23,002 bases of DNA, from positions 1 through 23,002 of the IMG/VR virus record IMGVR_UViG_3300013117_000130; one strand, given 5' to 3'. This document shows, one piece after another, positions 502 through 14,333 of this stretch (positions within the stretch are counted from its first letter, which is position 1; each line of letters begins with the position of its first letter). The translations under genes were made by a program, and so were the position numbers. The stretch is from a virus. The notes under the pieces were generated by a model that was not told where the DNA came from, searched no databases, and worked only from the letters and a program-made list of their open reading frames with translations.

Positions 502-2820
502 ATGACCACTAGAGCACAAAATACAATCGACAACGCGGCGGCCCTGGCGGAAATGGCAGGCGGCTCGCCGGTCCCGGTCGAAAAGGAAACCCTCTCGGGT
601 TGGGCTGCGCGGTGGCTCTCCGGCCAGGCCACGGGCACCGCCTCGCAACTCGGCGGGCCGTCGTCGCCGTATAACGAGTATATATGGTCCAACGCGTGCA
701 TTCGTGCACTGTCGATCAACGCCGCCCGCGTTCCGATCAAGCTCTCGCGAGGCGAAGCGTCCGGTACGCGAAGCGTCTGGGGGCACAAGCACGTTCGCTG
801 CGGAGGCGGCCGCAACCGCAGGAAGATGGCCGATCGCCTCGCCAAGAGGGCGTCAGTCCACAAGGCCGCCGAAGGCGAGATCATCGAGACCGGCGATCTG
901 CACGCGCTGCTGGAGCGCCCCAACTCCCATCAGACGTGGTCGCCGTTCATCAGGGAGACCGTCACGTACCTTTACGTTTACGGATCGGTCCACTGGCTGT
1001 TCGACGAGATGATCGGCTGCAGGCCGGTTTCGATGTACGCCGTCCCGGGCCACAGGTCGACGGCCGTGGTTGATAAGTCCGGCCTGGTCGAGCGGCTGGT
1101 CGGCTGGAAGTTCCGCGACCCCCACGGCGGCGAATACCCGGTAACGCTGGATGAGTGCATTACCTTTTCGATCTTCAATCCCGAAGACAAGCACGGCGGC
1201 CTGGCCCCGCACATCCCCGCCCGCCTGGCGATCGCCAGCGACTACAACGCCAGCACGTATAACGCGGCGATGTTCCACAACTCGTGCGAGCCCGGGACCA
1301 CCCTGGAAACCGAGGCGCCGTTCGATAAGGTGCTGGATGATCAAATCCGCACCTCCTGGGTCCAGAGGCACGGCGGACCTCTCAACGCCAACAAGTTTGC
1401 GATCCTCTGGGGTGGCCTGAAACACAATTCCGTCGCCAAGACGCTGAAGGAAATGGTCTACGCCGAGGGCAAGCAGCTTTCTCGCGTGGAGGTCTGCGCC
1501 GTCTACCGCGTGCCGCCCACCGTCGCGGGGTTCTTCGGGACCTCCGGCGATTCGTCGGCCTACACCGACAACGAGATGGAGCGGTTCTGGCAGGACACCG
1601 AAGCGCCGCTGGTCGGCGATATCGCAGAGGCTATCGACGTGCATCTCTGTCCGCGATTCGAGGGCAACCTGGAGGCCTGGGCCGACGTGGAAGATGTGCC
1701 TGTCTACCAGAAGATGAGGCGGGCCCGGATCGCCGTTGCCGACAAGATGTTCAAGATGGGCGTGCCGATGGAGGATATCATCGAGAATCTGGACCTCGCC
1801 CTGCCCGAGCGGCCCTGGTACGCCGCCGGTTTCCTGCCGCTTAACATCCAGCCGGCACACCTGGCGGCCGCAGAGACGCCCGACGAACCGGTCAACGAAC
1901 CGAGCGATGACGACGACGAAACGGACGAATTGGGGCAAAACGGCGTGAAAAGTGTCCGTGGGGTCCCCGCGGCGCGCAAAACCGCAAGTAACGACCGTCT
2001 GACCCGAATCTGGAAGGCGTGGGAGGCGTCCTGGAAGCCGCTGGCCGGGCGGTTCGAGTCGATGCTCCGGGCCCATTACCGGCGACAGGAAACGGCTATT
2101 CTTAAATCGCTCCGCAAGGAACTCAAAAAATCCGTTTCATCCGGTTCATCCGTGGCTACAAAATCAGCCGTCAGCCGTATCCTTTTCGCCATCTTCGGCG
2201 ATCCGAAGTCGAAGAGGGCGTTCCGCGATCGCGTGAGGGCCTTCCTGACGGACGCCGCCGGCCTGGGCGTCCGCCAGGCGTTATCCGAGGCGGGCGTCGA
2301 AGGCGACGCCCTCGACGACGCGGCCGCTGAGGTCGCCGGATCGTCGGCGATCACCGACGCCCTGAAGTCCAATGCGGTGCGCGTCTCGACACTGGTCGAC
2401 GGTAAGACGCGGGGGCGGCTTAAGGCGGCCCTGACGGAGGGCTTTGCCGGCGGCGAGGATATCCGCCAGCTTACCACGCGCGTCCAGGAGATCATGGGCA
2501 ACTCGCGCAAGGCCGCGATGGTCACCGCCCGCAACGCCGTAGGTCAGACGCTCAGCCACAGCCGCCACGTCGGACACAAGAAGGCGGGGATGACACACAA
2601 GGTCTGGGTCCACTCTCGCGGGCCCGGCGAGCGGCGAGAAAGCCACGTGGCGGCCGAGGCCCGGTACGCGACCAATCCGATCCCGCTCGATCAGCCGTTT
2701 GAGATCGGCGGTGCGAAGCTGATGTACCCACGCGATTTTTCCGCCGGTGAGCCGGGCGAGACGGTCAACTGCCAGTGCCTGCAGTTGGCAAAACGGAAGA
2801 AGAAGAAAGGCGACGGATGA
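502..2820 (+). CDS. Portal protein fused to a MuF-like head morphogenesis domain
   Basis: The 772-residue product is longer than a normal HK97-type portal (about 400-500 residues). Residues about 55-440 look like the portal that forms the dodecameric DNA gate: WSNACIRALSINAARVPIKL (62-81), LLERPNS (136-142), TYLYVYGSVHWL (155-166) and EVCAVYRVPPTVAGFF (330-345). A basic, Gly-rich stretch at about 83-128 is extra relative to typical portals. Residues about 460-500 form an acidic linker. Residues about 630-765 resemble the Mu gpF/SPP1 gp7 head morphogenesis domain, with HSRGPGERRESH (704-715) and the closing ETVNCQC (753-759). The ATG start has no strong ribosome binding site; it lies 7 bases after the terminase stop and may be translated by coupling. 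The fusion would place portal and minor head protein in one chain at the packaging vertex. The portal call is firm and the MuF call good. Confidence 0.87.
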   Translation: MTTRAQNTIDNAAALAEMAGGSPVPVEKETLSGWAARWLSGQATGTASQLGGPSSPYNEYIWSNACIRALSINAARVPIKLSRGEASGTRSVWGHKHVRCGGGRNRRKMADRLAKRASVHKAAEGEIIETGDLHALLERPNSHQTWSPFIRETVTYLYVYGSVHWLFDEMIGCRPVSMYAVPGHRSTAVVDKSGLVERLVGWKFRDPHGGEYPVTLDECITFSIFNPEDKHGGLAPHIPARLAIASDYNASTYNAAMFHNSCEPGTTLETEAPFDKVLDDQIRTSWVQRHGGPLNANKFAILWGGLKHNSVAKTLKEMVYAEGKQLSRVEVCAVYRVPPTVAGFFGTSGDSSAYTDNEMERFWQDTEAPLVGDIAEAIDVHLCPRFEGNLEAWADVEDVPVYQKMRRARIAVADKMFKMGVPMEDIIENLDLALPERPWYAAGFLPLNIQPAHLAAAETPDEPVNEPSDDDDETDELGQNGVKSVRGVPAARKTASNDRLTRIWKAWEASWKPLAGRFESMLRAHYRRQETAILKSLRKELKKSVSSGSSVATKSAVSRILFAIFGDPKSKRAFRDRVRAFLTDAAGLGVRQALSEAGVEGDALDDAAAEVAGSSAITDALKSNAVRVSTLVDGKTRGRLKAALTEGFAGGEDIRQLTTRVQEIMGNSRKAAMVTARNAVGQTLSHSRHVGHKKAGMTHKVWVHSRGPGERRESHVAAEARYATNPIPLDQPFEIGGAKLMYPRDFSAGEPGETVNCQCLQLAKRKKKKGDG
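2130..2154 (+). repeat. Short CATCCG-type tandem repeat inside the portal-MuF linker
   Basis: Three imperfect units (ATCCGTTTC, ATCCGGTTC, ATCCGTGG) follow each other within the coding sequence and encode a Ser/Gly/Val-rich run around residue 545. The sequence resembles the low-complexity repeats in the nearby gaps more than it resembles the surrounding codons. It sits between the portal and MuF halves, where an insertion would be tolerated. Confidence 0.45.
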
Positions 2821-2856
2821 ATATCCAATATCCAACATCCGATATCCAATACCCAA
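2820..2856 (+). repeat. Family A repeat (ATATCCA units) between portal and protease genes
   Basis: The gap holds four degenerate copies of a roughly 9-base unit (ATATCCAAT, ATCCAACAT, CGATATCCAAT, ACCCAAG). A frame from ATG 2817 to TGA 2873 spans it exactly. Its ATG overlaps the portal stop as ATGA, and its stop overlaps the protease start as GTGA. The peptide would be MNIQYPTSDIQYPSERQR. Whether it is translated is unknown. Confidence 0.6.
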
Positions 2857-2869
2857 GTGAACGGCAACG

Positions 2870-3832
2870 GTGACAAGAATGGATGACATCAAGACAACAG
2901 GCCTGGAAACGGGCGTTATTGAAAAGGACTCCGAAGAGGCCAAGGGCCGCTTCATGAAGGGCTACACCAAGGGCGTCGACATCGCTAACAGGACGATCGA
3001 CGGCGTGGCCTCGACGATCAATCTGGACCGCCACTGGGAAGTGATCCTCCCGTCGGCCGTCGCGGCCCGGGCAGAAGCGTTCATGAAGTCCAACGCCCCG
3101 TTCCTGGCCGCCCACTCTCACCGCACCGGCGACGCCAGCCCCACCCAGATCGGCTGGGTGATCGAACTGAGTACCTCGAAAGCGGACGTTCCCTGCAAGT
3201 TCCGGTTTGCGACAACCGACGTGGCCGAGGAGTGGTGGAAGCTGGGCAGCGACGCCAACGGCAAGGGGATCGCCTTTTCGATCGGCTTCTACCCGATCCG
3301 CTGGGTCTACGGCAGCGTCGCCGATCTGGTCAAGGAGTTCCCGGAACTCAAGAAAGTATTCAAGGCCGCAGGCCTGAGCGACACCGATCGCGTACGCGTC
3401 TATACCGAGATCGAACTGGTCGAGATATCGGCCGTCCCGTGCCCGGCCAATCGCGAATCGATTCAAATCCTCGCGGCCAAGTTCTTTGACACGGAAAGCA
3501 AGGGCGGCGACGAAGGCGATGGGGGTGATCGGGTAGAGCGGTTCGCCGCCGCGCTTGGGAAACACTTCGCCGAATCGATCGGCGAGATGTTTGACGAAAA
3601 AATCGGTTGCTTGGAATCCCTCCGCTTCGACGTGGAGGAGTCACTCTCAGATATCAAACTCCTGATTGCCGGAGGCTCAGACCTCGACGGACGCGACGCG
3701 GGACCAAAAAGCCCTGACTGCGACGACGTCGACGACGAGGACGAGGCCGGCCAGGATGAGCAGGGCAAAGAAGGCGAAGACCTCGTCGGCCAGGCTGCGG
3801 TCGGGCTGAGCGAGGCATTGTCGAATCACTAA
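2870..3832 (+). CDS. HK97-type prohead protease (family S78-like) with acidic scaffold-like tail
   Basis: Prohead proteases cleave the N-terminal delta domain of the capsid protein and themselves during maturation. Residues about 28-205 show the fold: GVASTINLDRHWEVILPSA, PFLAAHSH (78-84, candidate catalytic His), GIAFSIGFYP (133-142, candidate catalytic Ser in FSIGF) and VEISAVPCPANRES (184-197), the usual end of the domain. At 320 residues it is longer than a bare protease of about 200. The extra C-terminal part is acidic (DCDDVDDEDEAGQDE) with helical segments, and may act as a scaffold, as in protease-scaffold fusions; this is inference. The GTG at 2870 overlaps the tiny family A frame; an in-frame ATG at 2879 is an equally possible start. 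The capsid gene follows. Confidence 0.85.
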   Translation: MTRMDDIKTTGLETGVIEKDSEEAKGRFMKGYTKGVDIANRTIDGVASTINLDRHWEVILPSAVAARAEAFMKSNAPFLAAHSHRTGDASPTQIGWVIELSTSKADVPCKFRFATTDVAEEWWKLGSDANGKGIAFSIGFYPIRWVYGSVADLVKEFPELKKVFKAAGLSDTDRVRVYTEIELVEISAVPCPANRESIQILAAKFFDTESKGGDEGDGGDRVERFAAALGKHFAESIGEMFDEKIGCLESLRFDVEESLSDIKLLIAGGSDLDGRDAGPKSPDCDDVDDEDEAGQDEQGKEGEDLVGQAAVGLSEALSNH

Positions 3833-3861
3833 TCATTAACACCAGAACAAGGAGCAGTACC

Positions 3862-5187
3862 TTGGACCCGAAACTAAAAGAACTACTCGAGCGCATGATG
3901 ACGCGGATTGCCGTCGGCGCGGCCGAACGGGACGAAAAGGCCGTCGCCGAGTCGCTCGGGGCCATAACCGAGTACATCAAGAACAACGACGTAGGCGGCT
4001 ACCAGGCCACCAAGGAGTTCATCGAGACGATCGCCCAGCTCCGCAAGGATATCGACGCCCAGGCGACGCAGATCCGCAGTCTCGAGCGCGCCGGACTGAA
4101 CGTCTCGAATCGCGGCGTCGAGCTGATGGGCCGCCGGGATATCATGGACCTGCGCAGAGTGGGCCGCGTCTTCCAGACGCGACAGCAGGCCGAAGGGTTC
4201 GGCGCATTGTGCGCACGCGCGGTTCACGGCAACTCGGCGCGGTACAAAGAGATCGTCTCGGCAAAGGCCCGCGATCTGGCTGAGCAGTTGACAAAGGACC
4301 TCGACCCCGGCGTTTCGACCCAGGGCACCGAACTGGTGGCTAATATCTACATGGCCGACCTGATCGCCCACGTCGAGGCCGTCGGCGTCCTGTTCACCGA
4401 GTGCGACCGCGTGCCGTTGGCCACCACCGGCCAGACGATCTACCCCAAGCTGACAGGCGAAGTGACCGCCGCACCGGTTGCCGTCGCCGCCGCCCTGGCC
4501 GAATCGACCCCGACCTTCGGGACGGTGACCCTGACGCCGGTCAAGTGGGGCCTGATCACCCCGGTGCCTAACGAGTTCTTCCGCAACCCCACGCTGCTCG
4601 ACCAGCTCGGCCAGCGCCTGGCGTGGCAGATCACCCGGGCGATCGCCTACGCGTTCGACAACGCCCTGGTCAACGGCGACGGGACGGCCGCCTATGGGAC
4701 CATCACAGGCCTCCTGCAGTCCAGCAACCTGACGGCGGTTACGGCCGGCTCGGCGACCACCCTGGCGACGTATACGGCGGCGGAGGTCGGCTCGGTCATC
4801 GCCGGTATGGCCAAGGACTACGTCACTGACCCCAAGTGGTACATGTCGCTCTCGGCCGAGCGGACACTGCGGAATATCCGGGCGACCACCGGCCAGCCCC
4901 TGTACGAGCGGGGCGGCAACGGCGAGCCGAACACGATCGACAACTACCCCTACAGCATCTGTCAGAGGTTCCCGGCTGCCGCCGCCGCGACGGCGGATGT
5001 CAAGTGGGGCGCGTTCGGCGATCTGCGGCTGAGCCACTACTTCGGGATGCTCTGCAATATCCAGATCGACCAGTCCGAGCACGTGCGGTTCGAGAACGAT
5101 ATGACCGTCCTTCGCGGCCTGGCACACGCCGACGCGGCCGAGAAGGACGCCGATGCGACCGTAGTCGCCAAGACCGCCGCCGCATAG
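3862..5187 (+). CDS. Major capsid protein, HK97 fold
   Basis: The 441-residue product is the shell-forming protein. Residues 1 to about 110 are helical and charged (LKELLERMMTRI, RKDIDAQATQIRSLERAG), like the delta or scaffold domain that the neighbouring protease removes. The body starts near DPGVSTQGTELV (148-159). It continues with AHVEAVGVLFTECDRVPL, TPVKWGLITPVPNEFF, an ITRAIAYAFDNALVNGDGTAAYGTITGL stretch typical of HK97-fold proteins, and late strands including WGAFGDLRLSHYFGMLC and VRFENDMTVLRG. The start is read as TTG at 3862 because AAGGAG at 3849-3854 sits at ideal spacing. The first ATG (3895) would lose 11 residues and lacks such a site. Order protease then capsid supports the call. 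Confidence 0.9.
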   Translation: MDPKLKELLERMMTRIAVGAAERDEKAVAESLGAITEYIKNNDVGGYQATKEFIETIAQLRKDIDAQATQIRSLERAGLNVSNRGVELMGRRDIMDLRRVGRVFQTRQQAEGFGALCARAVHGNSARYKEIVSAKARDLAEQLTKDLDPGVSTQGTELVANIYMADLIAHVEAVGVLFTECDRVPLATTGQTIYPKLTGEVTAAPVAVAAALAESTPTFGTVTLTPVKWGLITPVPNEFFRNPTLLDQLGQRLAWQITRAIAYAFDNALVNGDGTAAYGTITGLLQSSNLTAVTAGSATTLATYTAAEVGSVIAGMAKDYVTDPKWYMSLSAERTLRNIRATTGQPLYERGGNGEPNTIDNYPYSICQRFPAAAAATADVKWGAFGDLRLSHYFGMLCNIQIDQSEHVRFENDMTVLRGLAHADAAEKDADATVVAKTAAA

Positions 5188-5199
5188 GAACGACACCCG

Positions 5200-5249
5200 T
5201 TAGCTTTCAGCCCGTAGCTGACAGCTAGAAGCTAGTAGCTAGTAGCTAA
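5200..5249 (+). repeat. Family B repeat (TAGCTAG units), copy 1
   Basis: The gap after the capsid gene holds AGCTAGAAGCTAGTAGCTAG and related units. The left half (TTAGCTTTCAGCCCGTAGCT) is a degenerate reverse complement of the right half (AGTAGCTAGTAGCTAA), so the stretch can fold into a hairpin. It ends directly before the ribosome binding site AAGGAG of the next gene. A second copy lies at 8751-8813. No bridging frame with a usual start is visible in this copy. Confidence 0.6.
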
Positions 5250-5266
5250 TTTTAAGGAGTAACAAG

Positions 5267-6412
5267 ATGAAGCAGCACAGTACGAAAATCTTTTTTGCGG
5301 CGGTCGTCCTCCTGGCGATCTTCGCCGCCTCGACGTTCATCCCGACCCACGCGGCTGTAACGCCCCTGTCCGGCGCGACGGGCGCGACGGCCGGGGCCGG
5401 CGGGGTAACCGCCGGCCTGTTCGTCAAGCTGGAATCGGCCGGGACGATCGTCACGGCAACGGCAGTCACCGACAAGGTTGTCGGCGTCTGCGACCTGGCC
5501 GCCTCGGCCAACGGCCTGACCAGGTACGCGCCTATCGGCACGCAGCGGGCGGTAACTTCCGGCGAGGCGATCACCGTCGGGGATCTGCTCACCGCCGGCA
5601 CAGGCGGCAAGGCGTTTGTCCTGGACACCGACGATGCGTCTACCCAGCGGTATTGCGCCGTGGCGCTGACGGCGGCCTCCGGCGCCGACGAATCGGTAAC
5701 GGTGGCGATCATACCCGGCGTGGTCGAGCAGCGGCTGACACTCGGCGGGACGGTCGCCATCAGCGGCGCCAACACGTTTACCACGGGCACCGGGGCGGTG
5801 ACACTGGCCGGTGATGTTACCGTATCTTCGGGCAAGGATATCGGTATGTCCGGGGCGTCTACGTTCACCAGCGGGACAGGCGCCATCGCCCTCAACGGCG
5901 ACATTACCGTCGCGGCGGGCAAGGATATCTCGTTTGCTGTCGGCGCTGGATACCTGGAACTCAACGGCGAGACTTCCGGGTCTATCGTGATCGACCCGAT
6001 CACCACCGGCACGAACGCCACCACGATCGTCAACGGCAACGCCGCAGGGCCGGCGACGATCACCCTGCCGGACGCCACCGCGCAGCTCAACGGGGCGCCC
6101 GGCTCGTCGGTCGCGTCGGACGCTGATTCGCTGGCGATCCCCGTGACCAACACGGTCGTCACCAAGACCACCGGCGGCGACGCCGAGGCGCTGACCCTGG
6201 CCAACGGCTTTCCCGGCCAGGTCCTGATTATCACCTTAGTCACCGCCGGCGGAGGCGAAGGAACGCTGACTCCGGCGACCAAGACCGGCTTTGCGACGAT
6301 CGTATTCGCCGACGCCGGCGATACCGCCGCGCTGCTCTACGTCGACGATTCCATAGGTTGGATAATCCTCGGCACCGCAGGCGTGGCGGCCCCGCCCGTG
6401 ATAAGCGTGTAG
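5267..6412 (+). CDS. Decoration-like protein with N-terminal signal peptide and beta-repeat domain
   Basis: The 381-residue product has three parts. Residues 1-29 read as a classical signal peptide: a basic start (MKQHSTK), a hydrophobic core (IFFAAVVLLAIFAASTFI) and a possible cleavage site after THA. Residues about 45-155 resemble small capsid cement proteins (DUF2190-like): GGVTAGLFVKLESAGTIVTA, DKVVGVCDLA, RAVTSGEAITVGDLLTAG and QRYCAVALTAAS. Residues about 160-230 hold two copies of a roughly 30-residue beta-rich unit, followed by more Thr/Gly/Ala-rich sequence. The ATG has a strong AAGGAG site at 5252-5257. Position after the capsid gene fits a decoration role, but an export signal is odd for a protein assembled in the cytoplasm. 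It may be membrane-anchored or exported; family call moderate. Confidence 0.6.
   Translation: MKQHSTKIFFAAVVLLAIFAASTFIPTHAAVTPLSGATGATAGAGGVTAGLFVKLESAGTIVTATAVTDKVVGVCDLAASANGLTRYAPIGTQRAVTSGEAITVGDLLTAGTGGKAFVLDTDDASTQRYCAVALTAASGADESVTVAIIPGVVEQRLTLGGTVAISGANTFTTGTGAVTLAGDVTVSSGKDIGMSGASTFTSGTGAIALNGDITVAAGKDISFAVGAGYLELNGETSGSIVIDPITTGTNATTIVNGNAAGPATITLPDATAQLNGAPGSSVASDADSLAIPVTNTVVTKTTGGDAEALTLANGFPGQVLIITLVTAGGGEGTLTPATKTGFATIVFADAGDTAALLYVDDSIGWIILGTAGVAAPPVISV
5759..5935 (+). repeat. Internal duplication of a 30-residue beta unit
   Basis: Residues about 165-194 and 194-223 of the decoration-like protein are two copies of the same pattern: SGA-TFT-GTGA-L-GD-TV--GKDI. The DNA copies share blocks such as GGCAAGGATATC. 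This looks like an in-frame tandem duplication in a surface-exposed domain. Confidence 0.7.
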
Positions 6413-6429
6413 ACCACATCGGCCCGCGA

Positions 6430-6456
6430 GCCGGGGCGGCTGCCAGCCGCCCCGGC
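6430..6456 (+). promoter_or_regulatory. Perfect 12-bp stem-loop between structural genes
   Basis: GCCGGGGCGGCT (6430-6441) and AGCCGCCCCGGC (6445-6456) pair completely around a GCC loop. There is no T run after it, so it does not look like a standard intrinsic terminator. It stands 26 bases before the next start codon. It may be an mRNA stabiliser, a processing site or another intergenic hairpin of this module. Confidence 0.5.
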
Positions 6457-6482
6457 CGCCGGCTGGCGAAAGGAACAATCCG

Positions 6483-6863
6483 ATGGCAGAGAGAAAAATG
6501 GTAAGAGTCAAGGTCCTCCAGGCAATTGCCTACGAGGGCCTTGTCATCCGGCCCGAGATCGACGACTCGCCCAGAATCCACGGGCGTCCCGCCAAGATCA
6601 CGCCGATCGAGGCGGAGATCCCCAGGGACCTGGCCAAGGCCTTCGGGCCGAAGTACGTCAAGATCCTCGGCCCGGCCGCAAACAAGAAGGCCCCGGCCGA
6701 TCCGCCCGCCGACGACAAACCCGAAGGTGGCGAGGAGCCTGAAGGCGGAAAGGAGCCCGCCGACGACAAACCCGAAGGTGGCGACAAGCCTGAAGGCGAC
6801 GACAAACCCGAAGGTGGCGACAAGCCTGAAGGCGACGAGAAACCAAAAGGCAAGAAGAAATGA
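6483..6863 (+). CDS. Small unknown virion-module protein with acidic DKPEG repeats
   Basis: The function is not recognised. The first 60 or so residues (MAERKMVRVKVLQAIAYEGL through IEAEIPRDLAKAFGPKYVKIL) look like a small compact domain. A similar short protein often follows the decoration protein in phage head operons. The remaining half is a disordered, highly charged tail built from (D/E)KPEGG(D/E) units and ending in KPKGKKK. The ATG follows GAAAGGAA at good spacing. The stop overlaps an ATG (ATGA at 6860) that opens a 61-residue frame through the next gap. The tail repeats could vary in number by slippage. Confidence 0.65.
   Translation: MAERKMVRVKVLQAIAYEGLVIRPEIDDSPRIHGRPAKITPIEAEIPRDLAKAFGPKYVKILGPAANKKAPADPPADDKPEGGEEPEGGKEPADDKPEGGDKPEGDDKPEGGDKPEGDEKPKGKKK
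6708..6844 (+). repeat. In-gene tandem DNA repeat encoding DKPEGG units
   Basis: Units of about 36 bases built on GACAAACCCGAAGGTGGCGA and GCCTGAAGGCG recur with few changes. The last two 36-base units are almost identical, which suggests recent expansion. Confidence 0.75.
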
Positions 6864-7045
6864 TCCGCCGCTACAAAGACAGACTGGCCCCCCGCCCGCT
6901 CGATAAGCGGGTCGGGGCAGGCGCGAGGCCGGAGACCGGAGGCGGGAGTGACGGCAAAGGCTGTGGGAAAACCTCCGGCCTCAAGACTCCGGGCTCAGGC
7001 CTGGAAACCTTCACCGCCCCGCCTCACCAGCGGGCGATTACCTAG
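6860..7045 (+). CDS. Possible 61-residue bridging frame across a repeat-containing gap
   Basis: The ATG at 6860 overlaps the upstream stop as ATGA, the classic coupling arrangement. The frame runs to TAG at 7043-7045, about 95 bases before the next gene. The peptide starts MIRRYKDRLAPRPL and carries ARPETGG and TSGLKTPGSGLE, which are encoded by the family C repeat. Related words (RPETGG, TSGLRSP) occur in the tiny frame at 9757-9834. The peptide matches no family I recognise. It may be a non-functional passenger frame of the repeat. Confidence 0.3.
   Translation: MIRRYKDRLAPRPLDKRVGAGARPETGGGSDGKGCGKTSGLKTPGSGLETFTAPPHQRAIT
6925..7006 (+). repeat. Family C repeat (GGCCGGAGACCGGAGG), copy 1
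   Basis: The left arm GAGGCCGGAGACCGGAGG (from 6925) is partly complementary to ACCTCCGGCCTC and GGGCTCAGGCCT downstream, with about 30 bases between. The same left arm recurs at 9759. The gap from 6863 to 7141 also holds a short CCCGCT/AGCGGG hairpin near 6896-6912 and the stem-loop at 7081-7111. Confidence 0.6.
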
Positions 7046-7080
7046 ATTATTTCCAAAAACCCAGAGAGCGACGAGACGGG

Positions 7081-7111
7081 GCCTGGCGGGTGCGATCATC
7101 GCCCGCCAGGC
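7081..7111 (+). promoter_or_regulatory. Perfect 10-bp stem-loop before a small gene
   Basis: GCCTGGCGGG (7081-7090) pairs with CCCGCCAGGC (7102-7111) around an 11-base loop. It lies 29 bases upstream of the next ATG and has no following T run. The role is unknown; it adds to the hairpin-rich character of this gap. Confidence 0.45.
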
Positions 7112-7140
7112 CGCCCGGCGTCCGGGAAAGGAAACGACTG

Positions 7141-7380
7141 ATGACAGTAGACAAAAACATCGAGCCCTTGACGGTCGAGCAGATCAGGAAGACGGCAAAG
7201 ACCTCCATCCGCAAGTCGGACAACGCGCTGATGGTCGCCGTTGAAGTGGTCGGCCCGACCTGCACGAGTAACGGCAAGACCTACGGCCGTGGCGAGAAAT
7301 TCGAGATGGAGATCTCGCTCGTGCCCGTCCACGTCCAGCACAAGCAGATCGAAGTCATTGAGAAAACGAAAAAGGCGTAA
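7141..7380 (+). CDS. Small unknown protein of the head module (79 residues)
   Basis: The product starts MTVDKNIEPLTVEQIRKTAK and includes ALMVAVEVVGPTCTSNGKTYGRGEKFEMEISLVPVHV. The middle resembles the small proteins near the connector genes of some phages that carry a short beta barrel (a G-TY-RGE turn), but I cannot name a family. The ATG at 7141 is chosen because AAAGGA at 7127-7132 is well spaced. The same leader, GGAAAGGAAACGAC, precedes the gene at 9310. An in-frame GTG at 7090 would lie inside the stem-loop and is less likely. Confidence 0.6.
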   Translation: MTVDKNIEPLTVEQIRKTAKTSIRKSDNALMVAVEVVGPTCTSNGKTYGRGEKFEMEISLVPVHVQHKQIEVIEKTKKA

Positions 7381-7385: not shown

Positions 7386-7534
7386 TGGCAGTTGGGAGTT
7401 GGCAGTTGGCAACGACATGAGAACCCACGGCAACAACCAGGCAACGACAGCGGCGACCGCTTGCGGTTTCGCGCGATGTTGCTGTTTCGCCGTTAAGCCG
7501 TCGCCAACTGCCCACTGCCATCTGCCAACTGCCA
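7386..7534 (+). repeat. Family D inverted-repeat element, copy 1 (CAGTTGG type)
   Basis: The left arm is made of CAGTTGG-like heptamers and the right arm of CCAACTG-like heptamers (GCCAACTGCC, CTGCCAACTGCCA), with about 85 bases between. The interior (ACGACATGAGAACCC ... GCCGTTAAGCCGTCG) closely matches that of copy 3. Frames bridge the gap: GTG 7385 to TGA 7420 overlaps ATG 7417 as ATGA, and that frame runs 42 residues to TAA 7545, 2 bases before the next gene. Its peptide begins MRTHGNNQATTAATA. Confidence 0.75.
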
Positions 7535-7547
7535 CCGAGGTTTAACC

Positions 7548-8144
7548 ATGCTCTGCACCCTCGCACAACTGAAGGCCCGACTGTCGGTCGCCCACAGCGA
7601 CAGCGATGCTCTCCTGACGGCGATCATTACCGGCGTTTCCGGTCAGCTCCAGGGCCAAGGCGGCTGCGGCCGCCAGCTGGCCCTGGACTCGGGGCGCGTC
7701 GAATACATCAGCGTCGAAGAGTCCCGGCAGGGAAGCGTCTGGGTGGCCCGCTACCCGATCGCCTCGATCACCGAGATCAAGGAGGCGTTGTATGGCGCCT
7801 ACGCCGACGTGGATGCCCTGGTGGTCAACGAGTCGTATCAGTTCAAGGCCGCCACCGGCGAGCTGAGGCGGATCGGTTTTTGGCTGCGGGGCATAGAGAC
7901 GATCAAGATCACCTACGACGGCGGCTACGTGCTGCCGGCCGACGTTGCCGGCGCCGGCGAAACGGAACTGCCCGACGAGATAGTCGAGGCCGCGATCCAG
8001 CAGGCCTCGTTCGTCTACCAGCGCCGCGGGCAACTGGGCCTGACATCGGTCGGCTCCCAGGGCGGATCGGCCTCGGCCTACGCACAGGACAAACTGCTGC
8101 CGGGCGTGGCAGCAACGATGAAGGGATACAGGCGGTTCGCGTGA
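7548..8144 (+). CDS. Head-tail connector (gp6-like) protein
   Basis: The 198-residue product resembles gp6/gp15-type connector proteins, which form the ring below the portal. It has the short helical start LAQLKARLSVAHSDSDALLTAIITGVSGQL, central strands RVEYISVEESRQGSVWVARYPIASITEIKE and the late motif IETIKITYDGGYVLP followed by LPDEIVEAAIQQASFVYQRR, a typical final helix. The ATG at 7548 follows GAGG at 7537-7540, just after the family D element. The stop overlaps the next GTG start (GTGATAG), so the two genes are coupled. Confidence 0.75.
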   Translation: MLCTLAQLKARLSVAHSDSDALLTAIITGVSGQLQGQGGCGRQLALDSGRVEYISVEESRQGSVWVARYPIASITEIKEALYGAYADVDALVVNESYQFKAATGELRRIGFWLRGIETIKITYDGGYVLPADVAGAGETELPDEIVEAAIQQASFVYQRRGQLGLTSVGSQGGSASAYAQDKLLPGVAATMKGYRRFA

Positions 8145-8746
8145 TAGTGACTTGCGAAATAACGCCGGAGTCCGACGCCGCGATCGGCGCCCACGGCCGC
8201 GCGGCCGCCGGGGCTCATGCTGCGATGGCAGACGGCCTGGAGACGGCCGTTGTCGTCGGCGCAGAGTCCGTCACCGAGCAGTTGGTTATGGGGCAGTTGG
8301 GCCTGACGATGCAGAACCAGGCATCCGGCCTGGCGGCGTCAATGGCCGGCTGGATGATCGACCGTCGCGGCCTGGTTGCAGCCCTGGGCATCCCGCCGGA
8401 CTCACCTGCGGCCCACTATGCCCGGATGCTCAATGACGGCGGTGTGATCCTGCCGCGCAGGGCAAAGGCCCTGGCCATCCCCGTATCGCAAGAGGCCAAG
8501 CGCCACGAGTCGCCGCGGGACATGGACGGCCTGGAGATGATCCCCCGCAAAGACAAGCCGCCGCTGCTGGTCAGGAAGCTAACCAAACGCGGCGACTTCA
8601 CCGGCATGCAGGTCCACTGGATTCTGGTGGCCAGCGTAACGATCCCGGCATTCCATTGGCTCGACAACGGCGCCGAAAACGCCGTCGGCGACATGGTCGA
8701 CGCGTTTGTAGACGTTCTGGAAGAGTGGATGGGCAAGTGGGATTAA
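8141..8746 (+). CDS. Putative neck or tail-completion protein
   Basis: The frame is read from GTG at 8141, which overlaps the stop of the connector gene, giving 201 residues. The first half is helical and Ala-rich. The middle contains GGVILPRRAKALAIPVSQEAKR, a pattern I associate with phage morphogenesis proteins of the Mu gpG/HK97 gp10 type, and the later part VHWILVASVTIPAFHWLDNGAEN resembles their usual aromatic-proline segment before a C-terminal helix. These proteins close the neck or start tail attachment. Position between connector and tail-terminator candidate agrees. The family call is tentative. The stop overlaps ATG 8746 (TAATG), which opens a small frame through the next repeat. 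Confidence 0.55.
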   Translation: MIVTCEITPESDAAIGAHGRAAAGAHAAMADGLETAVVVGAESVTEQLVMGQLGLTMQNQASGLAASMAGWMIDRRGLVAALGIPPDSPAAHYARMLNDGGVILPRRAKALAIPVSQEAKRHESPRDMDGLEMIPRKDKPPLLVRKLTKRGDFTGMQVHWILVASVTIPAFHWLDNGAENAVGDMVDAFVDVLEEWMGKWD

Positions 8747-8750
8747 TGCG

Positions 8751-8813
8751 AGAGCTACGAGCTGCTAGCCGCGAGCCTCTAGCTAGAAGCCAGGAGCTAG
8801 TAGCTAGTAGCTG
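8751..8813 (+). repeat. Family B repeat (TAGCTAG units), copy 2
   Basis: AGCTACGAGCTGCTAGCCGC on the left is a degenerate reverse complement of AGGAGCTAGTAGCTAGTAGCT on the right, so the stretch can fold. It shares AGCTAGAAGC and AGCTAGTAGCTAGTAGCT with copy 1. A 22-residue frame (8746-8814), beginning MRELRAASREPLARSQ, runs through it from the upstream stop to 11 bases before the next ATG. Confidence 0.65.
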
Positions 8814-8825
8814 AGAGCGAATGAA

Positions 8826-9248
8826 ATGAGCAACAAGATATCGACAGTCGTCGACAACATCGCCACCGGCCTGGCGTCGCTCGTGCCGGACACGATCCGC
8901 GAGATCAAGCGAAAGGTGATCAATGCCCAGACCGAGCAGGACCCCCCGGTCATGGGGATCTCGATCAGCCGCTTCTGGCGGACGGCCGACGACTGCTGGC
9001 ATGCCCAGGCCCTCGTGCAGTTGGTCACCCGCAAGGGCGGCGACGAGGTTGACGAGGCGACTATCGACCTGACCGCCGACGTGGCGGCCAATATCCAGAC
9101 GACGATCGACGCAGGCGACATCGGCGGCCACGTCGACAAGCCCGTCTTCGATACATGGCACAACCGCAGCGGAAACGACGACCTGACGCTGGTCGGTGTA
9201 ATGGCCACGATCGATATCCAGGTTAAAGGACCGTTAAAGACCGAGTAA
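8826..9248 (+). CDS. Tail-terminator-like protein (tentative)
   Basis: The product has 140 residues. The order after a tail-completion candidate and before a tail-tube candidate suggests the tail terminator that caps the tube. Visible features fit but do not prove this: an N-terminal helix (STVVDNIATGLASLVPDTIREI), a strand-rich centre (DCWHAQALVQLVTRKGGDEVDEATIDLTADVAANIQTTID) and a final strand (TLVGVMATIDIQVKG). The start ATG has only a weak purine stretch upstream (GAGAGCGAATGAA). It could equally be a minor tail protein of another type. Confidence 0.5.
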   Translation: MSNKISTVVDNIATGLASLVPDTIREIKRKVINAQTEQDPPVMGISISRFWRTADDCWHAQALVQLVTRKGGDEVDEATIDLTADVAANIQTTIDAGDIGGHVDKPVFDTWHNRSGNDDLTLVGVMATIDIQVKGPLKTE

Positions 9249-9291
9249 CGGCCAGTGAAACGGCCAGTGATCAGTGAGCAGTTATCAGTAA
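9249..9291 (+). repeat. Family E repeat (CAGTGATCAGTGAGCAG)
   Basis: The gap contains two CGGCCAGTGA units followed by ATCAGTGAGCAGTTATCAGT. A frame from GTG 9255 runs through the repeat and into the next gene, ending at TGA 9320. A single copy is seen in the window. Confidence 0.5.
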
Positions 9292-9309
9292 CAACGGAAA
9301 GGAAACGAC

Positions 9310-9747
9310 ATGGCGAATGAAGGCGAGAAAATCTACGCATTGCGGAGCGCAACGCAGAACGCTGCTGGCGTCGACGGGGTGACCCACGCGTCGATAAGCG
9401 TCCGGCCGTTGGCCCGAACGGCGCTCAACTCCAAGTCCGGCGGCATCGAGGATTCGGCGATCGTCGGGTACAACATCAGGGTGCGGTTGTTCGGCCACAA
9501 CCAGGTCGCCCTGACCGGCCTGTTCGAGGACGCGGCCGCCGACACGGTGATCGACACTATCGGCCTGGCCGGCGCGCTGGAGAAGGCGACGATCAAGAGC
9601 GTCAACTACATCGACGCCGTGGCCGACGTGGACATACCCGAGCGCGACGGAGGCGGCAAGGTCGCGCCGTTCGGCATCGAGGGCGTGGCCCACTTCGGCG
9701 ACGCGGACACCCTGGCACTCATGATCGTCTGGGCGGCGGATGCGTAA
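9310..9747 (+). CDS. Major tail (tube) protein candidate
   Basis: The 145-residue product lies directly before the tape measure gene, the usual position of the tube subunit. The sequence is strand-rich (THASISVRPLARTALNSKSG, AIVGYNIRVRLFGHNQVALTGLFEDAA, KATIKSVNYIDAVADVDIPE, KVAPFGIEGVAHFGDADTLALMIVWA), which suits a small beta barrel that stacks as hexamers. It is short for a tube protein but not impossibly so. The ATG follows AAAGGA at 9298-9303. No second frame-shifted tail chaperone lies between it and the tape measure. The call depends mostly on order. Confidence 0.5.
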   Translation: MANEGEKIYALRSATQNAAGVDGVTHASISVRPLARTALNSKSGGIEDSAIVGYNIRVRLFGHNQVALTGLFEDAAADTVIDTIGLAGALEKATIKSVNYIDAVADVDIPERDGGGKVAPFGIEGVAHFGDADTLALMIVWAADA

Positions 9748-9756
9748 GAGGCAGGC

Positions 9757-9834
9757 ATGAGGCCGGAGACCGGAGGCTGTAGGTTCGGCGTCCGGGCCGT
9801 TACTCCAACCTCCGGCCTCCGGTCTCCAGTCTGA
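9757..9834 (+). repeat. Family C repeat (GGCCGGAGACCGGAGG), copy 2, with 25-residue frame
   Basis: GAGGCCGGAGACCGGAGG (from 9759) and CCTCCGGCCTCCGGTCTCC (9809-9827) form a strong inverted repeat, and AGGTT and AACCT near the loop pair as well. A frame from ATG 9757 to TGA 9834 crosses it, giving MRPETGGCRFGV then TSGLRSPV. It starts 9 bases after the upstream stop and ends 13 bases before the tape measure ATG. Copy 1 is at 6925. Confidence 0.65.
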
Positions 9835-9847
9835 ACAGAGCGAAGCG

Positions 9848-11446
9848 ATGGCAAAGGGCATCAAAATTCCGGTCACCGCACCCGGGGCCAAGCAGGCCCG
9901 GCGGGACATCAAAGGCGTTGCCGACGCCTCGAAGCAGCTTGGCGGTGACGCCAAGGCCGGCGGTGTGGACGCCGCCGAGGGGATGGATGACTTCACGGGC
10001 GCCATGGGCGTCAATCTCAGTACCTTCACTAACTGGAAGATCGGCCTCGGCGCGGGCATCGCCGCAATCATCGCGGGGCTTAAGGCTTCGTATGAACACG
10101 TCTCCCAAATCCACGAGAAGATGAGGGAAGCGTACCGTGAGTTTTCGTCCATGGCCCAGAGGCCATCGACCATCGCGTTGGCACAGGTTCGCGGTGAGTC
10201 GGAGGCGGCGACCGTCAAGTGGAAGAAAAGGACCGCCGCGAAGTACACCATCGACGCCGAAGAAGCCGGGGCTGCGGACTTCGGCCTCAAGTCCGGCCTG
10301 AGTACGGAATTCGATCGCTCCGGCCTCGACGAGATCGGCGAGGGGGCCTTCAAGACCATGCGCGTCTTCGGGGCCCGGGGCAAGACCGTCTCGGAGACCG
10401 CCGCCGCCTCGGTAAAGGCCGGGGTCGCTACCACACCCGCCGAGGTCAAAGACTTCCTGGCGAAGGTCGGGACGTTCGCCAAAGAGTCGGCCGTGGACTA
10501 CCAGGGCCTGGCTCAGGTCGTTAAAAGGCTGCTCCCCCTGGTCAAGTCGTCCGGCATACCGGTCGACCGCTTCCTGGCGATGGCCGCCGCTATGTCGTTC
10601 CAGATCTCCGACCCCGGCGAGTTGGCGACGACCCTGGAGAGGATCATCCGCTCGGCCGGAAAGTCGGGTCCGGCCCTAAAGAGGTACGCTGCCGAGGCGG
10701 GAAAGAAGCTCGACGACCTGACGGCCGCCGAGATCATCGACTTCCAGGCCAGCGTCATCGACGCCGCAGAGGGACCGCAGGCAAAGGCGCGGGCGGCCAA
10801 GAGCCTCGGCATAGAAGACGAGATCGCCACCCTGTACGGCAAGGCCTACGGCCCCGAGACGCGGGCGGGCGTCCGCAAGTTCCTTGCCGGCGCCGGCACC
10901 GCGTCGTTCGCCGACGTGGAAGGGCAGTACGCCAAGGTCCGCTCGTCGGACACGGCGAAGGTTTACGCCGCCAAGCAGAAAAAAGAACTCACCGAATTCG
11001 AGGCATCGCAAAGCGCCGCGCTGATGACGGAAGTCGAAGATCTTGCCGAGGCCGAAGTAACCCGGGCGATGGGCGAGGGAGAAGATATTGGCGGTTGGGA
11101 AGTCCTGGAAGACTTGGCCGGGGGCGACAAACGCGCCAAGCGATACTATATGATCAAGGCCCTTAAGGCGATGCTCAAGAGACTGTCCGAAGATCCGTCT
11201 CTCGACGCGGCGGCAAGCGCCGAGGCCGGTGATCTGTATCGCCAGTTCACTACCACCACGATGAGCCGGGGGGATATCGGCGCCAGCTTCCAGACCTCCG
11301 GTGGCAACGAACCTGCCGTCCGCGAAGCCTTCCGCTTCGTCCAGGGACAAGGGGGCGGAAACATAACGATCAATAACGGCGGGGTGCACTTTAACGGCCA
11401 GTACGCAGACCCCGCCGGAGTGCGGCGGGATACAGGGATGGAATGA
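9848..11446 (+). CDS. Tape measure protein (short)
   Basis: The 532-residue product is mostly helical and Ala/Lys-rich. It has a hydrophobic segment (KIGLGAGIAAIIAGLKA, about residues 57-75), long charged helices and a Gly-rich tail with NITINNGGVHFNGQYADPAG, an ending I associate with tape measure proteins. These set tail length and enter the cell with the DNA. By the usual rule of about 0.15 nm per residue it would specify a tail near 80 nm, a short siphovirus-like tail. A region with DYQGLAQVVKRLLPLVKSSGIPVDRFLAMAAAMSF resembles the repeated helical part of other tape measures. No peptidase or lysozyme domain is visible. The ATG has only a weak upstream purine stretch. Confidence 0.7.
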   Translation: MAKGIKIPVTAPGAKQARRDIKGVADASKQLGGDAKAGGVDAAEGMDDFTGAMGVNLSTFTNWKIGLGAGIAAIIAGLKASYEHVSQIHEKMREAYREFSSMAQRPSTIALAQVRGESEAATVKWKKRTAAKYTIDAEEAGAADFGLKSGLSTEFDRSGLDEIGEGAFKTMRVFGARGKTVSETAAASVKAGVATTPAEVKDFLAKVGTFAKESAVDYQGLAQVVKRLLPLVKSSGIPVDRFLAMAAAMSFQISDPGELATTLERIIRSAGKSGPALKRYAAEAGKKLDDLTAAEIIDFQASVIDAAEGPQAKARAAKSLGIEDEIATLYGKAYGPETRAGVRKFLAGAGTASFADVEGQYAKVRSSDTAKVYAAKQKKELTEFEASQSAALMTEVEDLAEAEVTRAMGEGEDIGGWEVLEDLAGGDKRAKRYYMIKALKAMLKRLSEDPSLDAAASAEAGDLYRQFTTTTMSRGDIGASFQTSGGNEPAVREAFRFVQGQGGGNITINNGGVHFNGQYADPAGVRRDTGME

Positions 11447-11449
11447 GGC

Positions 11450-11887
11450 ATGGCTGAAAACGTAAACGGCGCAGACATCTTCGGCAGCGGGTCCCACCGG
11501 TGGGACTGGGGCCAGCGGGCGATCGCGCGCAAGGAGATCCGGACGGTCGGCACTACCGGCGCCGCCTCGTGGCCGATCCAGGTCGGCGCCCGGCCCGGCA
11601 GGATCACCGGCGCCGACGGGCCGGCCGTGCTCAAGGTCTCCGGCCACGACACCCGCGCCCTGGCGGATGCTGCGATGGATACCCTGGAGGCGGCCATCGA
11701 GGATCTGATCACGGCAGGTACCGAATGCACCTGGGAAGACGACACCGGCCGGACCGGCAGCCATTTGCAGGTCCTCCGCTATCAGCCAGCCGCCCGCAGG
11801 CTCTACACCCGCGACTCAGACGGCAAGCACGGGATCTGGCAGGAGTACGTCTGCGAGATCATCGAACTTAGTGGCGACATCGTTTAA
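11450..11887 (+). CDS. Small tail protein after tape measure (possible distal-tail type)
   Basis: The product has 145 residues, starts MAENVNGADIFGSGSHRWDW and contains ADAAMDTLEAAIEDLITAGTECTWEDDTGRTGSHLQVLRYQPAARRL and a final strand YVCEIIELSGDIV. Its place between tape measure and the hub-like protein suggests a distal tail or tail-tip adaptor. I do not recognise the family from sequence. The ATG lies 3 bases after the tape measure stop, so coupling is likely. Confidence 0.5.
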   Translation: MAENVNGADIFGSGSHRWDWGQRAIARKEIRTVGTTGAASWPIQVGARPGRITGADGPAVLKVSGHDTRALADAAMDTLEAAIEDLITAGTECTWEDDTGRTGSHLQVLRYQPAARRLYTRDSDGKHGIWQEYVCEIIELSGDIV

Positions 11888-11893
11888 GAGGCA

Positions 11894-12091
11894 TGGCAGT
11901 TGGGAGTTGGCAGTTGGCAATTGGCGACGGCATGAACGACACACCAAACGACAGAACGACAGCAGAGCACGCGGAAAGGTCACAGCAAACGATGCGATCA
12001 CTAGCACACTTATCTCAGCGCCCGGCGGACTCGTTGTCCGCCACTGCCGTCGCCTTTGAGCCAACTGCCAACTCCCAACTGCCAACTGCCA
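11894..12091 (+). repeat. Family D inverted-repeat element, copy 2 (CAGTTGG type)
   Basis: The arms TGGCAGTTGGGAGTTGGC (from 11894) and GCCAACTCCCAACTGCC (ending near 12091) are near-perfect reverse complements across about 130 bases. A 68-residue frame spans the element from ATG 11893, 5 bases after the upstream stop, to TAA 12099, 1 base before the next gene. The peptide starts MAVGSWQLAIGDGMND and ends PTANSQLPTASE. The interior differs from copies 1 and 3 except near the arms (CGACGGCATGAACGACA, TGCCGTCGCC). Confidence 0.75.
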
Positions 12092-12100
12092 GCGAATAAA

Positions 12101-14152
12101 ATGAGCACCAATCGAACAACCCGGACCCGCAAGCTCACCCGCCCGGTGGTCGGCTACTCCACCGAATTGTGGGGCGTTCGCGCTGGGCTCGGTGCGCCCG
12201 AGCAGGTCTGGGAACCGCCCGACAGCAACCTCTCGTGCACCGAGGTCATCGAGCGGCTGGCGCCCGATGTCACCTCGGCCAAGTTGCGCATGGTGGCCGC
12301 CAATCGGTTCTACGCCTGGCAGTGGCGAAACATGATCGGGGTGTACGATAACGTCCGGGTCACTTCCAACCAGGCCGCCGCCGCCGACCGCACGTGCGTC
12401 TTTACCGGCTTCCTGGTCGACCACGACATGCACTTCTCCGGCAGCCGCGATGAAGTGATCGTAACGGCCATGTCCAACGCCCACCGCTTAAAGAGCGACA
12501 CGTGCGTCTACGGCCGCCAGATGCTCTACGACGCGGCGGACTCTACCGCCTGGACGCAGCTGATACACGCCACCGGCCTGAAGTGCAGCTTCAACGCCGG
12601 CGGCCTGCCCAACCGCAGCAAGTACTACACCCAGCAATCCCAGTACCGCGTCGGGATCGCCGCCGGCGGCACTCTCACATCCGTGCCCGTCTTCACCTGG
12701 GACGGAGATCCCGACGCCGAGTACTGGACGCTCTGGCAGGCGATCAGGTACCTGCAGGCGTTCTACAACGAGGCCGAGACGTGGCTGACCAATTATCCCA
12801 TGACCGTCGATCTGGTCAAGGGGCCCGGGCCGCTGGTCAAGGTCGATTGCGACGGGCTTGACGCCTGGTCGGCGATGGCCGCATGCTGCAGGCAGGCCGG
12901 ATACGATCTGTACGAATCGTACTCGGACGTCAACCCGGCCGCCGACGGACCGCCGACAACCGCGATCTCGATCGTCAAGTGGGGCGCCGGTACACAGCGG
13001 ACGGTCAAGCACCAGGACACCGACGTTGACGACAACGACGACCAGGTCGCCTCGGCGCTCGACCTGGAAAAAACCAACCTGTTCGGCGCGACGATCGCCG
13101 AGTCGACCGCCTCGTGCGTCGCTTCCCCGATTGTAGCCGGCGGCCGGGAGACCGTCGAGATCACAGTCGACCTCTACCAGGCCTGGGACCCCGGACGCCT
13201 GAACGTGACGACCTCCGACGTGATCAAGCCAGGCGAAGAGAGCGACAACGAAACCGACACCTACGTCAAGCGGTACTACACTCGCGGCTCTGAGTTCGGC
13301 CGGTACTCCGATGTCGGGCGCCTCTGGGACGCCAACTCCGACAAGCGATACTCCGGGTCGCCGTACAACTGCCTCGATGGCGGGGACCTGGGCGTAGCGG
13401 CTGACCTGGCGATAAAGACCTGGCCGCGCATGCCGCTGCCGCCAAGGCCGTGTCTGACCAGGCATGGCACAAGCGCCTCGGGCCGGGCGTCACAGGAGGC
13501 GGTCCTGCAGGTCAGTTTCGATTCGGGCAGCACTTGGCGGCCTCTGAGTGGTTTTCGCATGCTGAAGGACCGGCTGGGCGTCCAGCTCACCGCCGCCAAT
13601 CTCGCCTCGATCGTCAAGCCGACCGGCGACAAGACCGATCCGGCCGATACGCTCATCGGCTGCCTGATCGACTCGCCCGCGACGGTGAAGATGCGCCTGA
13701 CCTGCAGCGTTGCCTCCCCGCTGCGGCGGATAGTCAACCCCCCGCGTAGGGCCACCGCCGGGACGCCCCACGAAACCAAACGCTTCTTCGATCGCTCGGC
13801 CGCCGATGCGGCAAGGCGGCGGTCCTCATCGAGCATTTTTGAATCGGGCGACCCGTCGGACTTCCCGGCAGACACCGCCGACGCGGGCAACAAGCTCTCC
13901 CTGATCGCTGCGGCCATCCAGGACGCCGCCGAGGGCAGGACGCTGGAGGCCAATCTGCCGATCGAATGGCCAGACGAGGACCTCGGCCTTACCGACGTGA
14001 TAACGCGGATCGACGGGATCGACTACGACCTGGCAGCCACGCAGGGCGCCCGCAGGGTCTATCCCCGGATCGTCGGCAGGACGCTTCTGCTGGGGCCCCA
14101 GCACGCGATGAGCATCTCACTGGACTCGACGCGAAAGGCGGGGGTGGTTTGA
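12101..14152 (+). CDS. Baseplate hub/tail-tip structural protein
   Basis: The 683-residue product is strand-rich and lies where siphophages encode the hub that closes the tail tube. The N-terminal third (VVGYSTELWGVRAGLGAPEQVWEP, RMVAANRFYAWQWRNMIGVYDNVRVTSN, DRTCVFTGFLVDHDMHFSGSRDEVIVTAMSNAHRLKS) looks like the double-barrel domains of hub proteins of the gp27 type: an interface value is set, a tube frame defined and a binding operation described. The later part has a Tyr/Asp-rich region and a charged, disordered stretch near 570-600 (RRATAGTPHETKRFFDRSAAD). The ATG at 12101 is preferred. In-frame starts further up would add only repeat-encoded residues. No ribosome binding site is visible, so it may depend on coupling from the small family D frame that stops 1 base upstream. 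Confidence 0.6.
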   Translation: MSTNRTTRTRKLTRPVVGYSTELWGVRAGLGAPEQVWEPPDSNLSCTEVIERLAPDVTSAKLRMVAANRFYAWQWRNMIGVYDNVRVTSNQAAAADRTCVFTGFLVDHDMHFSGSRDEVIVTAMSNAHRLKSDTCVYGRQMLYDAADSTAWTQLIHATGLKCSFNAGGLPNRSKYYTQQSQYRVGIAAGGTLTSVPVFTWDGDPDAEYWTLWQAIRYLQAFYNEAETWLTNYPMTVDLVKGPGPLVKVDCDGLDAWSAMAACCRQAGYDLYESYSDVNPAADGPPTTAISIVKWGAGTQRTVKHQDTDVDDNDDQVASALDLEKTNLFGATIAESTASCVASPIVAGGRETVEITVDLYQAWDPGRLNVTTSDVIKPGEESDNETDTYVKRYYTRGSEFGRYSDVGRLWDANSDKRYSGSPYNCLDGGDLGVAADLAIKTWPRMPLPPRPCLTRHGTSASGRASQEAVLQVSFDSGSTWRPLSGFRMLKDRLGVQLTAANLASIVKPTGDKTDPADTLIGCLIDSPATVKMRLTCSVASPLRRIVNPPRRATAGTPHETKRFFDRSAADAARRRSSSSIFESGDPSDFPADTADAGNKLSLIAAAIQDAAEGRTLEANLPIEWPDEDLGLTDVITRIDGIDYDLAATQGARRVYPRIVGRTLLLGPQHAMSISLDSTRKAGVV

Positions 14153-14158
14153 GAGACA

Positions 14159-14308
14159 TGGCAATTGGGAATTGGCAATTGGCAATTGGCAACGACATGA
14201 AAACCAACGGCGACAACACGGCAACGACGAACACGACGGCAGCGGCCCGCGCCGTTGTCGTGGCCGTTAGGCCGTCGCCAATTGCCAATTGCCAATTGCC
14301 AATTGCCA
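14159..14308 (+). repeat. Family D inverted-repeat element, copy 3 (CAATTGG type)
   Basis: The left arm uses GGCAATTGG units and the right arm CCAATTGCC units. Every G-to-A change in the left arm relative to copies 1 and 2 is matched by a change in the right arm. The interior (ACGACATGAAAACC, CACGGCAACGACG, GCCGTTAGGCCGTCG) matches copy 1. A 57-residue frame from ATG 14158, 5 bases after the upstream stop, runs to TGA 14331, overlapping the next start as GTGA. The peptide starts MAIGNWQLAIGNDMKTNGDN. Confidence 0.78.
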
Positions 14309-14333
14309 GCTCACAGGAGGCACTCCTGTGAGC
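14309..14333 (+). promoter_or_regulatory. Perfect 11-bp hairpin covering ribosome binding site and GTG start
   Basis: GCTCACAGGAG (14309-14319) pairs completely with CTCCTGTGAGC (14323-14333) around a GCA loop. The left arm contains the ribosome binding site AGGAG, and the right arm contains the anti-site CTCCT and the GTG start at 14328. In a folded transcript the site and the start codon would be hidden. A ribosome finishing the small family D frame (stop 14331) would melt it. Confidence 0.7.

Follow-up and report, generated by a model that had tools for sequence, protein, structure and literature searches.

The intergenic gaps in the late operon of an uncultured phage appear to be occupied by a rapidly changing family of elements that are composed of repeats: an array with a unit of 7 nt, to which the long gaps add a loop and the reverse complement of the array. 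From their sequence, we tentatively read the gaps as fast-evolving intercistronic hairpins that act as punctuation and that are REP-like in place, but are not REPs, and we hold this reading with somewhat less than even confidence. Tiny reading frames that join neighbouring genes across the gaps are real, yet they are largely a by-product of the repeats.

The window, i.e., the whole stretch of DNA that was analysed, is a 23,002-base linear virus record from IMG/VR, and the phage has a siphovirus-like late region. The order of the late region is terminase end, portal fused to a head-morphogenesis domain, protease, major capsid protein (MCP), scaffold-family protein, head-tail adaptor, and tape measure. 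Calling the gene at 9310-9747 the major tail protein is a guess from the gene order, and the starts of the genes upstream and downstream of the gaps are predictions. Two more contigs carry DNA nearly identical to the window (99.98-100%). The same gene order was present in six usable relatives, with protein identities of roughly 22-73% (30-68% for most genes). A search of GTDB genomes with the portal found no relative, and the tail-protein query also found none. The repeats and hairpins in the gaps of the window are the following:

2820-2856, plus strand: single array of TATCCAA heptads in the portal-protease gap (TRF period 7, 5.3 copies).
5188-5266, plus strand: MCP-g5 gap with AGCTAGT heptads (array at 5223-5248), lag-7 identity 0.56, no bridging frame.
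6422-6463, plus strand: GC-rich hairpin filling the g5-g6 gap (arms 6422-6442 and 6444-6463, fold z -4.8).
6893-7036, plus strand: stem-loop of CCGGAGG-type heptads in the g6-g7 gap, with a second hairpin at 7080-7112.
7386-7535, plus strand: heptad stem-loop TTGGCAG/CTGCCAA with a loop AUG at 7417, beginning 5 nt past the stop codon and finishing 12 nt before the next start.
8753-8812, plus strand: AGCTAGT heptad stem in the g9-g10 gap.
9265-9289, plus strand: single array of CAGTGAT/CAGTTAT heptads in the gap between g10 and the major tail gene, no stem (z 0.1).
9760-9832, plus strand: heptad stem-loop CCGGAGG/CCTCCGG between the major tail and tape measure genes.
11894-12091, plus strand: heptad stem-loop TTGGCAG/CTGCCAA with a loop AUG at 11932 (fold z -10.8).
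14159-14308, plus strand: heptad stem-loop TTGGCAA/TTGCCAA with a loop AUG at 14197 (fold z -9.5).

The arrays are thus built from the units TATCCAA, AGCTAGT, CCGGAGG, TTGGCAG, CAGTGAT, and TTGGCAA, and the heptad differs from junction to junction. The lag-7 identity was 0.44 in the gaps, while other lags (non-multiples of 7) yielded 0.24-0.31 and the genes 0.26. Strict arrays were found six times in the window at lag 7 and never at lags 5-6 and 8-12. In the relatives, sixteen strict arrays were found at lag 7, four at lag 9, one at lag 12, and none at other lags.

Most of the long gaps contain an array, a loop, and the reverse-complement array, so that the gap folds as one stem-loop. The fold z was below -2 in seven of ten window gaps, with a lowest value of -10.8, and the arm match was 37.2 within a gap versus 17.5 between gaps. 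Five of the heptad stems begin 5, 6, 12, 6, and 6 nt past the stop codon, and they finish 9-19 nt before the next start. The gaps 2821-2869 and 9249-9309, as well as all gaps of the relative L017, contain heptads without a significant stem. The sense and antisense strands fold equally well. Among the stem mismatches, A.C was more frequent than G.T (51 versus 18; 16 gaps versus 4), and this record speaks against selection on the sense RNA stem, because such selection should favour G.U. The arms also have a polarity: in 20 of 27 gaps the left arm is rich in purines and the right arm in pyrimidines, and 26 of 32 single arrays from other viral contigs, some of them near-duplicates, are rich in pyrimidines on the sense strand. 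The polarity connects the elements with the direction of transcription or replication, a connection not expected from plain slippage. Intrinsic terminators (GC stem plus T run) and known RNA families were rejected as the identity of the gaps. Terminator-like sites were no commoner in the gaps than in shuffles, the sole plus-strand site in a gap (7461-7476) lies within a loop and has a stem of five pairs, and none was seen after the heptad stems. The Rfam 15 covariance models had no match in the gaps and matched a tmRNA and a group II intron alone.

The first-pass annotation had claimed that small frames bridge many of the gaps and are joined to the genes on both sides. All nine frames that it listed were found at the positions it gave, with the joints it described. 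The frame at 6860-7045 is indeed joined at its start end only, and the gaps 5188-5266 and 6413-6482 have no bridging frame, as it had also pointed out. The same is true for its remark on weak or hidden ribosome binding sites: g10, the tape measure gene, and g14 are without a clear Shine-Dalgarno sequence, and that of g15 lies in an 11-bp stem. The protease may instead begin at ATG 2879, which lies in the same frame as GTG 2870; the overlap of the frame 2817-2873 would then become a 5-nt gap. Four features are needed for the following:

7417-7545, plus strand: loop-AUG frame, stop 2 nt before the head-tail adaptor start.
11893-12099, plus strand: small frame, stop 1 nt before the g14 start, second in-frame AUG at 11932.
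14158-14331, plus strand: small frame, stop in a GTGA overlap with g15, second in-frame AUG at 14197.
14309-14333, plus strand: perfect 11-bp hairpin GCTCACAGGAG-gca-CTCCTGTGAGC, predicted from sequence and fold, containing the Shine-Dalgarno sequence and the GTG start of g15.

Ten gaps of at least 40 nt were scored for joining in the window. The proposed comparison with shuffled gaps bore the observation out: six of the ten gaps were joined at both ends versus 1.15 expected from dinucleotide shuffles (p 0.002), and seven versus 1.30 when the two-frame chain was included. The expectation was 2.4 joined gaps when arrays and start codons were kept and the frame alone was randomised, 1.6 when the junctions were shuffled, and 1.0 when junctions and frame were both randomised; seven joined gaps were reached in 0 of 2000 trials of these nulls. 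The excess of joined frames is genuine for the window sequence. The true surprise is smaller, because the tolerances for joining were fixed post hoc, with the pattern already seen, and because three of the seven joined gaps (7386-7535, 11894-12091, and 14159-14308) are copies of one element family. TTGGCAG, CCGGAGG, TATCCAA, and their complements are stop-free in all three frames, as are most heptads, and thus a frame that enters an arm crosses the whole arm; stops are present in AGCTAGT, CAGTGAT, and CAGTTAT. The starts and stops near the joints may be supplied by pieces at the element ends, i.e., CATGGCA after the stop codon and A-rich DNA before the next gene. Stop-poor heptads and these end pieces would lower the excess, but would not abolish it.

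The outcome was different for the relatives, in which preservation of the frames had been proposed as a further check. In six of them (L017, L018, L020, L021, L023, and L024) 7 of 46 gaps were joined versus about 5 expected, which is no excess over chance, whereby the gene starts were inferred from homology and added noise to the gap counts. A looser rule, i.e., a frame that covers half of the gap and ends at the next start, gave 12 of 44 gaps versus 9.3 (shuffles) or 8.4 (frame null). At most of the junctions that are joined in the window, the relatives have lost the frame, lack the gap, or contain different repeats, with the same neighbours. The portal-protease gap, for example, is missing in most relatives, and the two genes overlap there. 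Because the relatives are at chance level and most junctions have no frame, the frames as such are not conserved, and conserved small proteins were rejected. A stop close to the downstream start, as in coupled gene pairs, is found in seven of ten window gaps by way of the small frame, and these joints are not conserved among the six relatives. The idea that the small frames carry ribosomes across the gaps and couple translation is therefore supported in part: it did not stand in its general form, but a narrower version is kept plausible by the frames that start in loops and by the sequestered start of g15.

An AUG in the loop was found in eight stems (three in the window and five in relatives), which are among those with the longest loops. 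In all eight cases the frame from the first loop AUG runs through the downstream arm and either stops at a distance of -3 to +11 nt relative to the next start or continues in-frame into the next gene. The local expectation was 3.9 of eight and the product of the local probabilities 0.002, for a pattern that was spotted post hoc and in which three of the eight cases are related copies. The mean A content of the loop-AUG context was 0.39, compared with 0.31 downstream of gene starts and 0.20 genome-wide, and the context was A-rich in seven of eight cases. It resembles a real start of the phage, AACGACATG, as found before 9310. When the portal of L021 is read from the loop AUG, its N-terminus includes AAALAEMA, which the portal of the window also has, and the downstream arm is thus probably coding in L021. 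This AUG is likely to be where the portal gene starts, because the conserved AAALAE is located between it and the next start. In the same relative (L021:19102), an N-terminal extension of g17 (SSASSAPSVA) may be encoded by the downstream arm of an element.

Coupled reading at single junctions is plausible, and the best candidate is 14309-14333. A downstream start that is hidden by a hairpin is a classic setting for coupling by RNA unfolding in phage genes, and phage f1 VII-IX shows the principle; coupling is lowered by structure directly after the stop codon (PMC12548453). The g14-g15 hairpin resembles the f1 VII-IX and MS2 coat-lysis systems (PMC12548453) in that it lies before the start and could be opened by a translating ribosome, but the upstream reader would be a small, unconserved, repeat-made frame. 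No g15 hairpin was seen in L021.

The gap fillers are turned over rapidly. The same junctions carry other words in the relatives, i.e., CAGGCTG in L017, GGGCACT and 9-nt words in L021, and ATTTCCG and ATCCGCA in L024, and arrays are completely replaced between relatives. L018 and L019 are 99.5% identical, and the MCP-g5 gap has 64 nt in one and 136 nt in the other, the length differing exactly there. At this gap (L018:6866-6918, L019:6610-6746) the identity falls to 95% and the filler differs, as if it were a recombination border. Copy-number change between near-identical phages was rejected for L021 and L022, which have no indel across 10.8 kb. Four relatives also have heptad arrays within the portal gene itself, towards its head-morphogenesis part (L020:1841-1884, L021:4644-4685, L023:4426-4472, and L024:4759-4902), and heptads of the ACCGAAA type lie between late genes of a distant phage, whose adaptor is 27% identical (L025:1791-5177). 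In the window, the portal gene contains a 9-nt repeat at 2130-2152, and the 3' end of g6 (6704-6852) an in-frame 18/36-nt repeat of an acidic, Pro-Glu-Gly-Gly-Asp-Lys type. No gene is present at 9748-9847, where the presumed major tail gene is followed by that of the tape measure and where tail assembly chaperones usually lie; in several relatives this gap is a repeat-built stem.

Arrays of TTGGCA are not confined to these phages. They were found in at least 120 genome stretches of many phyla and in 48 viral contigs. With gene models that are simple ORF calls, 16 of 21 chromosomal sense-strand TTGGCA arrays lie 4-36 nt past a stop codon, and TGCCAA arrays lie farther away (p 0.001). The fold z was below -2 in 13 of 23 chromosomal array gaps, several of which have a complementary array downstream. 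A phage-only origin was rejected, because bacterial contigs that carry ordinary genes have arrays as well. Nor was a genome-wide host trait supported: in a MAG whose arrays are dense in other parts, a random sample of 433 kb contained few. Lag 7 was not special in this sample, and thus the array density varies strongly within genomes or bins.

Exact-sequence and heptamer searches of the accessible literature found no description of such hairpins. Bacterial heptamer arrays have been noted for years, and we know of no accepted account of their role and cause. That bacterial genomes give rise to heptanucleotide arrays is known (PMC4679880). Examples are the TAACTGA intergenic heptamer direct repeats of Beggiatoaceae, Cyanobacteria, and Bacteroidetes (MacGregor 2015, PMC4679880) and, as far as they are described where cited in PMC4679880, heptanucleotide long simple sequence repeats (LSSR, Mrazek 2007). 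The window arrays, which are tandem 7-nt units located between genes, share with both the unit length, the intergenic location, the few copies, the proximity to start codons, poor ribosome binding sites, and a distribution scattered across phyla. In contrast to TAACTGA, which is one fixed word per genome without a structure of its own, the window has at least five heptads, which change with the junction and have paired inverted arms. Unlike TAACTGA and LSSR repeats, they fill a phage late operon. The window gaps carry a variant of the known intergenic heptamer repeats, which is new in that it occupies the late operon of a phage and has inverted arms that match each other.

REP/BIME elements of enterobacteria are a second comparison. 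REPs within 15 nt of the stop codon lower translation in E. coli (PMC12306157), and REPs protect RNA ends (PMC12306157, PMC13289151). The window elements are likewise extragenic imperfect palindromes that are able to fold, and five of them lie 5-12 nt past the stop codon, i.e., not more than 15 nt away and in the translation-lowering range of REPs (PMC12306157). However, they have no consensus motif across copies, their arms are tandem heptads, and the heptad differs between junctions. The tandem repeats of Borgs, as far as the available part of the source describes them (PMC9879509), are also fast-evolving, occur in mobile genomes of uncultured hosts, and are both intergenic and coding. Borgs are linear extrachromosomal elements of archaea, and according to that part their repeats are direct, of varied unit length, and not inverted pairs at junctions.

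Under the punctuation reading, the late operon would be transcribed and a hairpin would stand directly behind the upstream gene, comparable to REP elements acting within 15 nt of the stop codon. Punctuation may mean that the 3' end of the upstream gene is protected, that terminating ribosomes are held, or that cistrons are separated. The arrays were probably born by slippage and template switching, and the frames would stay open because TTGGCAG, CCGGAGG, TATCCAA, and their complements are stop-poor. Ribosomes that start at a loop AUG or in a small frame could unfold the downstream arm, which may influence protein ratios at some junctions, above all g14-g15, and the peptides themselves would be of no importance. 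A neutral or selfish growth of heptads and inverted copies, by replication slippage and strand switching, is only slightly less likely: the junctions would be the only room that the phage has, arrays would arise wherever no gene is harmed, and stem and frame would be functionless. The complete turnover of arrays, the difference between L018 and L019 (99.5% identical) just at the MCP-g5 gap (64 versus 136 nt), the same heptads in genomes of many phyla, the lack of preference for G.U in stems, and the arrays known from bacterial genomes (PMC4679880) all agree with it. However, plain slippage does not predict a unit of 7 nt nearly throughout, the arm polarity (20 of 27 gaps; 26 of 32 single arrays), or the tight spacing from stop codon to stem. 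Function and neutral growth are nearly level, with function slightly ahead.

It is distinctly unlikely that the tiny frames themselves are the purpose, i.e., that ribosomes cross the gap in the small frame, melt the stem, and start the next gene. The seven of ten joined window gaps, the eight of eight loop-AUG frames with their A-rich, start-like context, the likely portal start in L021, and the hidden Shine-Dalgarno sequence of g15 together with the f1 VII-IX principle (PMC12548453) point towards such coupling. The relatives show no excess of joined frames and have no frame at most of the same junctions, structure directly after a stop lowers coupling (PMC12548453), and the g15 hairpin was not seen in L021, which argues against it. 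Insertion of mobile palindromic elements (MITE- or REP-like) behind stop codons is very improbable. The similarity among three of the elements is 63-84% over 63 nt, and their loop motif AACGACATGA also occurs in one element of L021, but no target-site duplication is visible at the element ends, and the arm sequence differs from junction to junction. The punctuation reading could also be given a more specific form, which is rather unlikely: a late-operon punctuation free in sequence, which keeps the 7-nt period, the paired arms, the place behind the stop, and the loop AUG, while the sequence changes with junction and lineage, and in which loop-starting ribosomes would open the downstream arm and set protein ratios.

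A compact phage family whose late-gene junctions each have their own heptad and matching inverted arms offers a small, repeatable system for telling structure, position, and translation apart from sequence. For annotation, it is a warning that many of the tiny frames in gaps of this kind are by-products of the repeats, and that some loop AUGs may be real starts.

Two further features lie outside the gaps. A tmRNA gene with the tag GEYQMKRAA was found within the viral record at 20735-21051, and it may be an attachment site or a phage-borne copy. Over the final 40 nt it agrees at about 90% with many Planctomycetota, a likeness that does not fix the host. Just beyond the phage late genes, the region 21477-22912 contains a group II intron end (Rfam RF00029) and an adjoining minus-strand ORF of 447 aa, which is presumably its reverse transcriptase.
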